Below are positions 37,462 to 40,149 of a stretch of DNA of 40,639 nt, in pieces. The position numbers and the translations under genes are program-made. Source of the DNA: a virus. Within the stretch, counting starts at the first letter, position 1. The number at the start of each line of letters is the position of its first letter. A model generated the notes under the pieces. It did no database searches and was not told the origin of the DNA. It worked only from the letters and a program-made list of their open reading frames with translations. The stretch is taken from positions 1 to 40,639 of IMG/VR virus record IMGVR_UViG_3300044833_000040; one strand, 5' to 3'.

Positions 37462-37646
37462 CCAGCTGCCTCCATCGCCGCGTTGCAATAAATGCAATCC
37501 GGCACGCCGGTCCTGCTCGCGCATTGATGGCCTCCCGTTTTACTTACACAGTCGAGCCCGTGGCAGCGGTAGACCAGAAATCCGCCATGCCTTGGCGATG
37601 GCTGCATCTCTTCGGCGCGGATGCGCGACCAGTTAACCGCGCTCAT
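37458..37646 (-). CDS. 62-residue CxxC protein
   Basis: The ATG at 37646 overlaps the previous stop by 4 nt. The product has CHGLDC, a CAS in the middle and CIYC near the end, so a zinc site is likely; the N-terminal part (NWSRIRAEEMQPSPR) is basic. No family was recognised. The long upstream ORF in this frame lies antisense-free but inside the previous gene and lacks protein-like composition. Confidence 0.6.
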   Translation of the reverse strand: MSAVNWSRIRAEEMQPSPRHGGFLVYRCHGLDCVSKTGGHQCASRTGVPDCIYCNAAMEAAG

Positions 37647-38080
37647 AGCGCCTTCCATTTCGCGACTTGGACGATAATCTCGGCCCACACATCCCGCGCC
37701 GCCACGTACTCCTCTGGGTGCGCCTTGCGGTGGGTCTCCTGCGCCAACTCCGCATCGCGCTCCGCCTGCACCGTCTCGGCCTCCCTGCGCCGCGCCTTGG
37801 CCGCGCGAATGGCTCCCTCCATCACGTCCAGTGCCGGGAACGCCGTTTCGAACTCGCCACGATTGCGGCCCAGCCAATCGAGCCCGGTGACGATATCCGC
37901 GTCCTCAAAACAGGCCAGATCCGCTGCCAAGACGAGGTAATCCGCCGTATCCAGACGAGCCTGGCGGCGTATACCCAGCCTCGTCAGCGCCATCACAATC
38001 TGCTGCTCTCTCGCCGATGATTCGGATGGCTTCGCGGGCTGCATCCATGCTGGATTCGGTTTTCGATTTGTAAGTTCCAT
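37643..38080 (-). CDS. Helical protein overlapping the replication gene
   Basis: 145 residues. The ATG at 38080 has an AGGAGG site 6 bases upstream, so the gene overlaps the end of the replication protein gene by 176 nt in another frame. Helices include QQIVMALTRLGIRRQARL and a long charged coil (AAKARRREAETVQAERDAEL). A helicase-loader or replication partner role would fit its place after the initiator-like gene, as P follows O in lambda, but no family was recognised. A later ATG (37993) would reduce the overlap to 89 nt. Confidence 0.66.
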   Translation of the reverse strand: MELTNRKPNPAWMQPAKPSESSAREQQIVMALTRLGIRRQARLDTADYLVLAADLACFEDADIVTGLDWLGRNRGEFETAFPALDVMEGAIRAAKARRREAETVQAERDAELAQETHRKAHPEEYVAARDVWAEIIVQVAKWKAL

Positions 38081-39050
38081 TGCTGCCTCCTGGTGCGCTT
38101 ACCGCTCCGTCCTGGGCCTTCGCCAGCCAGTTGCCGATGAATCGCGGCATCCCTTTCGGCGTCTTGCGATGGGTTGAATTCGTGATGAGCCACGTTCGCA
38201 TCTTGGCAAACTGATCCATCACGTTCACGGCCGGGTGCAGCGTCACCATCTCGCGGTAGAGCGCTTCGGGGACCGGCCATTCGCCTTGGGTGCCAGGGAG
38301 CGGAAGATCGAAGACTCCGGGCGAAGCTGCAGCGGGAACCGCGTCAGCGGTGGACGCAAGAGGTTCTTGTTTCTTCTCTGGCTTTGGCTCTGGCTTAGGC
38401 AAAGGCTTAGGCTTAGGCTTAGGCTTAGGCAGGACGCCGTTGTCCGACAACGGCAGACACGCAACTCCGCAGGCGTCCGAAATGTGCCGCAGCAGTTCAT
38501 CGGAAGGGGAAAACCATTCCCCCGTTTGGCGATATGCTGCGAACCGCTTGTGAAGGTCGATCTCAAGATTCCTTGTCCCGCGCACACTGCCAATGATCTC
38601 GAGACGCTCTGGGCACCCTGTTTGCAGCGCCTTCAGGCGGGAATCAACACTTCCCTCAGTAAACCCAACCTTGATGAGGCCATTCACTGTTCCGCGGATA
38701 AAGTAAATCCAAGGTCCAGACTTTCCACCAACAAATCCAGATCGCTCTAACTGCTTCTTGGTGGCATCGTCGCAGTGCTCCATCCAGTCATGCACTAGAA
38801 GCCGGTGCTCCTCGTCAATATCTAGCCATCCTGAAGCTAGAAGTCCCTGCACGAGCGCATCAGGATCTTCCCTCCAATCAATCTGAAGCGAGATGTCCTC
38901 ATTCGATAGCTTCCCGATATTGCCGATCGGCGTCTCCCGTGCCGTCAGGTGCCAGAGCGACTCCAAGATGCCGACCGCGACATACTGCGGGCAGTTCAGT
39001 GCCCGCATGAGTCGCTTGAGCTTGGTGTGCTGCATGGCTGTGCGCTTCAT
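37905..39050 (-). CDS. Replication protein with internal GIY-YIG domain
   Basis: 381 residues. Residues 10-105 match the winged-helix N-domain of phage replication proteins (QYVAVGILESLWHLTARETP, then VHDWMEHCDD). Residues about 113-192 are a T5orf172/MUG113-type GIY-YIG module: IYFIRG, LIKVGFT, RLKALQTGCP, EIDLHKRF and GEWFSPSDEL. A Lys-Pro linker (205-226) follows, then a part with NSTHRKTPKGMPRFIGNWL, usual in initiator C-domains. The module lies between normal halves in one open frame. The protein probably opens or binds the origin; a nuclease role of the module is inferred. The ATG at 39050 overlaps the previous stop. Confidence 0.82.
   Translation of the reverse strand: MKRTAMQHTKLKRLMRALNCPQYVAVGILESLWHLTARETPIGNIGKLSNEDISLQIDWREDPDALVQGLLASGWLDIDEEHRLLVHDWMEHCDDATKKQLERSGFVGGKSGPWIYFIRGTVNGLIKVGFTEGSVDSRLKALQTGCPERLEIIGSVRGTRNLEIDLHKRFAAYRQTGEWFSPSDELLRHISDACGVACLPLSDNGVLPKPKPKPKPLPKPEPKPEKKQEPLASTADAVPAAASPGVFDLPLPGTQGEWPVPEALYREMVTLHPAVNVMDQFAKMRTWLITNSTHRKTPKGMPRFIGNWLAKAQDGAVSAPGGSNGTYKSKTESSMDAAREAIRIIGERAADCDGADEAGYTPPGSSGYGGLPRLGSGSGLF
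38392..38430 (-). repeat. GGCTTA hexamer repeat coding for Lys-Pro
   Basis: Four exact GGCTTA units at 38404-38427, one more at 38392 after a short break, and a partial unit at 38428-38430. In the replication gene they encode the Lys-Pro run of the linker. Whole-unit slippage would add or remove Lys-Pro pairs without a frameshift. Confidence 0.85.
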
Positions 39051-39919
39051 AGTCCGCATACCCCTAAGCACTCCCGGCTGAAGTTGTCTTCGCGCCAGAA
39101 TCCAATCCTCTCTTGCCCTTCATGGGCTGCCGTCTTAGGCTTGAAGTCGATCTGCACGAGCGGCTTGCAGGATCGGTGCAGGAACATGTGTGCATCCATG
39201 TTCCGGTTCACAATCGCTCCGGGACGCCTCAAGGCTTCATCGACCTCCACGGCCCGCGCCCAGTCCTCTGGCACGGACTTGACGTTCTCCCATTCCGCAT
39301 CGTCGTGGAACGGGCAGAACACGCAGGCGGACCGTGGAACCTCATGCGGAACGTCGAAGCGTTCCCTAATCCAGTCCTTACAGTCGCGTCGTGTCATGTG
39401 GCGCTCAATCAAAGGTGCCCGCATCTCGCCCAGAGTGCGCCTCTTCAGCATCCGCGTGAATCGCCCGTGCTCGTCGACGGAGATCCCAACATACTGATGG
39501 ATAGAGAACTCCTTTTTGGGGATAGCGCGTCCGGGAGCGAGCCCGCAGAGTTCACGGCGGATTGTCCGCTCGATTACTTCGATCTTGTATTCAGCGGAGC
39601 ACTGGCGGCGCGTCTGCCCTGCATCGTCGGCACCCGGCATAATCGTGAACGCAGGGATAGAGGCAAACCGCTGGCCGGTTGAATTCTCCCCGCGCATCAG
39701 GTCATCGCCGAGCCGCGACCCCTTACCGCGAATCAGGATCGGCGGCCCATTGAGCGAAAGGAGCCAATTCACATGTTTGTAGACCGCAACCGGCTCTTCT
39801 CCAGGGTCCGCCATGATGGCGAAGTCAATCTGCACGTCAAGCTCCCCGCGCATAAACATCAGGTAGAGCGTCGTACTCTGCACGCCGGCCCCGAGATTGA
39901 GGACATGGATATCCTTCAC
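39047..39919 (-). CDS. PP-loop (PAPS reductase-like) protein with Fe-S cysteines
   Basis: 290 residues. The start has a PP-loop variant, LNLGAGVQSTTLYLMF, and ADPGEEP, as in phage members of the PAPS reductase / adenine nucleotide alpha-hydrolase group. Cys107 (RRQCSAEYK), Cys199 and Cys202 (CVFC), and Cys284 and Cys288 (CLGVC) could hold an iron-sulphur cluster as in DndC-like enzymes. It may activate a substrate as an adenylate for thiolation or another transfer to a nucleotide or tRNA; no dnd partners are present. The GTG at 39919 overlaps the previous stop by 4 nt. Confidence 0.8.
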   Translation of the reverse strand: MKDIHVLNLGAGVQSTTLYLMFMRGELDVQIDFAIMADPGEEPVAVYKHVNWLLSLNGPPILIRGKGSRLGDDLMRGENSTGQRFASIPAFTIMPGADDAGQTRRQCSAEYKIEVIERTIRRELCGLAPGRAIPKKEFSIHQYVGISVDEHGRFTRMLKRRTLGEMRAPLIERHMTRRDCKDWIRERFDVPHEVPRSACVFCPFHDDAEWENVKSVPEDWARAVEVDEALRRPGAIVNRNMDAHMFLHRSCKPLVQIDFKPKTAAHEGQERIGFWREDNFSRECLGVCGL

Positions 39920-40149
39920 AGCCCCACCTCCGCACCCGCATCGCTCAGCGCGACCTCGGCCTTGAGCTTGCGGATGCCGTCGGCGCACGCCGGAAAGAGG
40001 GATTGCACCTCGCAATACTGCGCGGCCAACTCCAGGCCGAACTGGATGCCGCGCGTGTAGATGGCTTGGCAGGCGGCGAGCAGCAATTTGTCTTCAGGCA
40101 CAGCGAGGGCGTTGACGCCAATTGGCGACTTATCCATTCCGGTTTTCAT
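39916..40149 (-). CDS. Hypothetical 77-residue protein, first of operon I
   Basis: The ATG at 40149 has AAAGG 7 bases upstream. The middle (IYTRGIQFGLELAAQYCEV) resembles the N-terminal part of the 77-residue protein at 4338, and the later helix (ADGIRKLKAEVAL) also has a counterpart. No family was recognised. Coding up to 40323 in this frame is unlikely because it runs through a promoter and a hairpin. As first gene after the structured leader it is probably made early. Confidence 0.62.
   Translation of the reverse strand: MKTGMDKSPIGVNALAVPEDKLLLAACQAIYTRGIQFGLELAAQYCEVQSLFPACADGIRKLKAEVALSDAGAEVGL

Follow-up and report, generated by a model that had tools for sequence, protein, structure and literature searches.

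Odn, the gp88 protein of phage ICP1, is a nuclease of the T5orf172 type with an N-terminal domain similar to the DNA-binding domain of a satellite's RepA; it cuts the origin of that satellite and needs its iterons (PMC8263062). Odn-like proteins, including convergent counterparts in coliphages, have been inferred to have arisen repeatedly (PMC10448857). In Burkholderia phage JC1 the T5orf172 gene gp19 adjoins the initiator gene gp20 in the locus gp19-gp21 (PMC9144972). Free-standing GIY-YIG genes such as JC1 gp19 and L096 (genome G1077) are of the same nuclease family as the module described below and lie near initiator or helicase genes, but they are separate genes and not fused; we found further ones next to or near such genes (L005 in Sphingopyxis phage VSN-002, L217 and L231). 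The O protein of phage lambda has an origin-binding N-domain, a linker that encodes the origin (which thus lies within the initiator gene), and a recruiting C-terminal module. Other replisome organizers and lambda O-like initiators have these three parts as well, without a nuclease domain.

Here we describe a gene that appears to have these three parts and has a GIY-YIG domain of the MUG113/T5orf172 type between the first two, found in a stretch of viral DNA of 40,639 nucleotides that was analysed as a whole and is called the window (Table 1). Like Odn, whose target is iterons, its product begins with a DNA-binding domain of initiator type, after which comes a GIY-YIG domain (T5orf172/MUG113). 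Odn, however, is a two-domain protein with a RepA_N-like part, whereas the window protein keeps an apparently origin-encoding linker and a C-terminal replisome module, and the N-domains here are unrelated; since linker and replisome module are kept, the window protein is by definition not an Odn. The parts are already known, and the fusion is present, unremarked, in Myxococcus phage Mx8. What appears new is the recurrence of the fusion, a pair of initiators with and without the module in one genome, and the position of the module at a putative in-gene origin. In the literature searched, with subscription papers mostly outside it, we found neither a published account of a full initiator that contains a GIY-YIG domain nor a mention of the Mx8 fusion. 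Our preferred reading, to which we give a probability of roughly 0.45, is that a GIY-YIG nuclease domain was captured by the phage's own replisome organizer and would be steered to origins by the DNA-binding domain of the initiator.

Table 1. Features of the fused initiator gene and of its linker in the window (residues are counted from the upstream GTG, the ATG being residue 8).
Feature	Position	Strand	Evidence or remark
Window record	40,639 bases		IMG/VR virus record IMGVR_UViG_3300044833_000040
Fused initiator gene	37905..39050	(-)	381 aa from ATG at 39050; open frame, MKR start
Initiator N-domain (DNA-binding, winged-helix-like), residues 8-112	38736..39050	(-)	phrog_9474 1.4e-15; 29 relatives; AlphaFold2 pLDDT 87.5
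GTCTGGAC octamer	38714..38721	(-)	Directly before module; same as repeated octamer of relative L041
GIY-YIG (MUG113/T5orf172-type) module, residues 120-200	38472..38714	(-)	PF13455 1.2e-11; invariant columns; AlphaFold2
Perfect palindrome GCCGTTGTC-C-GACAACGGC (given on +)	38436..38454	(-)	Proposed initiator-binding site, putative in-gene origin
Hexamer tandem array (CCTAAG)n, read as Lys-Pro linker	38376..38430	(-)	TRF; similar arrays in relatives, other frames
C-terminal replisome-organizer module, residues 255-345	38037..38309	(-)	tblastn and HMM 9e-32

Architecture of the fused initiator gene

The ORFs of the window include an integrase (119-1240), terminase, portal, major head protein, head-closure protein and an exonuclease VIII-like protein, from which the window looks like a temperate phage. 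The fused gene, known from this single metagenomic contig, lies in a minus-strand ORF (37905-39071) that is open from an upstream GTG, and we took the gene to begin at the ATG because this is where the N-domain family starts (MKRTAMQH). A first-pass annotation of the letters had proposed a GIY-YIG module within a replication protein, in an open frame, with joints near residue 105 and before the Lys-Pro linker; profile searches confirmed the module and the initiator domain, the frame is open on the minus strand, and the joints lie where they had been placed.

The N-domain matches the PHROG "replication initiation" family phrog_9474 in a profile search (residues 9-105), and its viral fold matches include a 'Primosomal protein 1' (3e-5) and a 'Replisome organizer' (1.8e-3). 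By tblastn, the C-terminal segment is similar to Vibrio phage proteins and to the protein of Ruminococcus phage phiRgIBDN1 that is called 'replisome organizer'. Between N-domain and Lys-Pro linker, MUG113 (PF13455) matches residues 134-196 with 45.5 bits against a Pfam cut-off of 22.3, and several PHROG families match the GIY-YIG part (residues ~110-200). N-domain and module were modelled separately with AlphaFold2, and the structure prediction that the first-pass annotation had suggested gave a confident fold for the module (mean pLDDT 92.5). The top PDB matches in a fold search with this model included the GIY-YIG proteins UPF0213, I-TevI and UvrC, with E-values near or above 1 and none below 0.001; a PDB sequence search with the module or N-domain profile gave nothing useful. 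An intein was considered and rejected, as no His-Asn end before Cys, Ser or Thr can be read from the translation around residues 196-215.

In several relatives an ORF for a DnaB-type helicase lies nearby. A helicase or helicase-loader gene as neighbor is common and not obligatory, and none of the scanned window ORFs was recognised as DnaB- or DnaC-like. A 145-aa ORF (37643-38080, minus strand) without a Pfam or PHROG match overlaps the initiator gene at its 3' end. A PAPS-reductase-like gene adjoins the GIY-YIG-bearing gene both in the window (39047-40015) and in Rhizobium phage RHph_I3_18 (L196, 2567-3992).

Recurrence of the module in other initiators

A module is found at the same place in three more phages or prophages, whose initiators have other N-domains. 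The first is p19 of Mx8 (phrog_8130), annotated as 'replication initiation protein' and directly followed by a DnaC-like gene. As in the window, its GIY-YIG domain (50% identical to the window module) is preceded by an initiator N-domain and followed by a linker that contains palindromes and a tandem array, but the N-domain is of a different family and the C-terminal part is another one. The second, L054, is in a prophage-like bacterial locus (genome G208, of the phylum searched around L031) and combines an Mx8-type N-domain and a diverged module with the window-type C-terminal module. In the third, L145 from a metagenomic phage, the module follows a third kind of N-terminal region; this is the weakest case, since that region has no match among the named initiator families.

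In a tree of 93 modules (72 columns, with many forks without resolution and a very long L054 branch) the four fused modules need four separate changes, and they were grouped together in 0 of 200 bootstrap trees. The sister group of the window module consists of the short free-standing genes L116/L120 (support 98/76). The occurrence of the same arrangement in unrelated phages suggests a recurrent weapon aimed at origins, or a selfish insert.

Across 60 aligned modules, Tyr123, Lys134, Gly136, Arg145, Glu170, Arg181 and Gly184-Phe187 are invariant. The modules of the window, Mx8 and L145 retain the Tyr, Arg and Glu as well as the GEWF motif, and the nuclease of the window module is probably active. 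In L054, a Lys replaces the conserved Arg; together with the long branch, this divergence means that activity is not conserved everywhere, and the replacement is as expected for a decaying copy. It would also suit a domain that no longer cuts and that gives the initiator a further DNA-binding element or a spacer, as would the wide shuffling of T5orf172-type domains among phage DNA-binding proteins. We consider such a role unlikely given the residues and motif that the other three fused modules have kept.

The domain order (a DNA-binding domain, then the nuclease) is also that of Odn, and the protein could be a dedicated weapon of this kind against satellites or rival phages that no longer is the phage's own initiator. 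The retained replisome-recruiting module and linker array speak against this, as does the DnaC-like gene directly after Mx8 p19, and the window ORFs that were scanned include no other recognisable initiator; we regard a dedicated weapon as very improbable.

Relatives without the module and a natural empty site

Relatives of the N-domain were found by scanning viral and bacterial contigs. We tallied 95 distinct initiator-type ORFs, of which 40 have the window-type N-domain; the GIY-YIG domain is absent from 39 of these 40 sampled initiators, the window being the exception (the searches were targeted, and these tallies should not be read as frequencies in a population). An old, non-catalytic fold with one architecture in all relatives, which the first-pass annotation had named as a finding that would refute its proposal, is thus not what we observed, and by comparison with these relatives the module in the window initiator is not ancestral. 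In the relative with the closest N-domain (L020, 67-70% identity), which is module-less, the N-domain runs straight into a Pro-rich linker, and five others (L039, L056, L199, L207 and L214) have the window-type N-domain and the same C-terminal module without the nuclease.

Genome G208 holds a filled/empty pair, consisting of L054 with the module and a paralogous initiator, L067, without it. Their DNA is ~79% identical in the upstream region and the initial part of the N-domain; downstream, the identity is 86-87%, and the module segment is present only in L054. L067 is a natural empty-site counterpart of L054. We note that the linker repeats of the two paralogs differ (CACGCG-type in L054 versus TGCATGCA-type in L067), as if the origin specificity had been exchanged.

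Repeats in the linker and a putative in-gene origin

The 19-bp palindrome listed in Table 1 is the sole one in the 40.6 kb with arms of at least 9 bp and a spacer of at most 3, and it is rarely matched in synonymous resampling (p ~0.006-0.008). On the basis of this one palindrome and the adjoining array, the window linker is a probable candidate for an in-gene origin. Module-less relatives also have repeats, some of them palindromic, often just after the N-domain (e.g. TGTCGCGACA in L037 and TGTCCGGACA in L041). Tandem arrays, mostly of hexamers, occupy the linkers of the L015-L043 genes at about nt 340-600 and are read as Glu-Pro, Ser-Gln, Pro-Leu, Ser-Ala or Lys-Pro; being read in differing frames, they suggest that it is a DNA element, and not a peptide, that is conserved. 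In 16 of 25 module-less genes, no synonymous-codon shuffle out of 60 scored as high as the best tandem repeat. This suggests that the DNA itself has a function, for which an origin within the initiator gene would be the simplest candidate. The linker repeats of the four fused genes likewise exceed the synonymous-codon expectation.

The position of these repeats differs between the two kinds of genes: they (or the array) directly follow the N-domain in module-less genes and the module in fused genes. After the module, Mx8 p19 has palindromes whose arms reach 11 bp and then a GGAGAT array, L054 has CACGCG repeats and then a GGGAAGG array, and L145 has GGTCAC-type repeats and then an AAGAG array. 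The order of DNA-binding domain, nuclease, origin-like repeats, array and remainder is the same in 4/4 fused genes. On the other side of the window module, the octamer just before it equals the repeat of L041, which would mean that the module splits the repeat region; this is suggestive only, the match not being significant alone.

The first-pass annotation had offered that the nuclease nicks near the origin or marks phage DNA. The latter is without support. The former is plausible, and the putative in-gene origin adjoining the module makes it more specific. A nick at the phage's own origin might aid its opening or relaxing, or switch replication to a rolling-circle or recombination mode, and would suit a module that is tethered beside the origin-binding domain, whose coding DNA adjoins the probable origin, and that retains its active-site residues. 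But the great majority of relatives manage without the module, and the loss of the conserved Arg in L054 would not be tolerable were the nick needed; action at the phage's own origin is thus quite improbable in our view.

Possible capture and mechanism of the nuclease domain

If the nuclease domain was captured by the replisome organizer, as we prefer to read the locus, the module would have been inserted in frame between the origin-binding domain and the origin-encoding linker. The N-domain would bind the linker repeats, and the tethered nuclease would cut or nick beside origins of the same type without the insert, in co-infecting phages, prophages or satellites; in such module-less targets the cut would fall immediately next to the repeats. 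The phage's own origin may be spared because the insert of ~290 bp shifts the repeats away from the coding end of the N-domain. Repair from an insert-bearing genome would copy the module, and the fused protein would still start replication via its C-terminal module. A counterpoint is that a nuclease carried on the phage's own initiator risks endangering the phage's own origin.

A homing-type insert had been raised by the first-pass annotation and gains support from the module-less relatives, the filled/empty pair in one genome and the free-standing sister genes. In its fuller form, the module would be a mobile, in-frame and non-splicing homing nuclease inside an essential initiator, using the DNA-binding domain of the latter, sited at the very in-gene origin that is targeted, spreading by cutting the origins of module-less relatives, and protecting the host phage by its own insertion. 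We hold this full scenario only tentatively and consider it somewhat unlikely.

Should the nuclease be active, origin recognition, replication start and origin attack would be combined in one phage protein. Such a protein would be a plausible ancestor of, or intermediate towards, Odn-like anti-satellite nucleases and would explain the source of their targeting domain, and phage competition over origin types would be directly testable in the laboratory phage Mx8.

Candidates rejected and annotation of related proteins

Several tblastn candidates for further fusions were rejected. The translations from Pseudomonas phage U8, the Podoviridae records L075 and L076 and Bordetella phage IFTN4 are without a GIY-YIG domain, and the matches in Mycobacterium phage Heath and Mycolicibacterium phage phi1_186018 are GIY-YIG ORFs without an initiator domain. 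We also rejected the idea that members of the N-domain family carry 'HNH endonuclease' inserts, to which phrog_5718 and the labels on Bordetella avium phages had pointed, as inspection of L072 by eye gave no HNH motif. The label 'HNH endonuclease' on the L072 initiator (Bordetella phage vB_BaM-IFTN4) is a probable misannotation, and the same holds for two GIY-YIG proteins labelled 'helicase' (L010, Tenacibaculum phage PTm1) and 'DnaD-like helicase loader' (L071, Mycolicibacterium phage phi1_186018).
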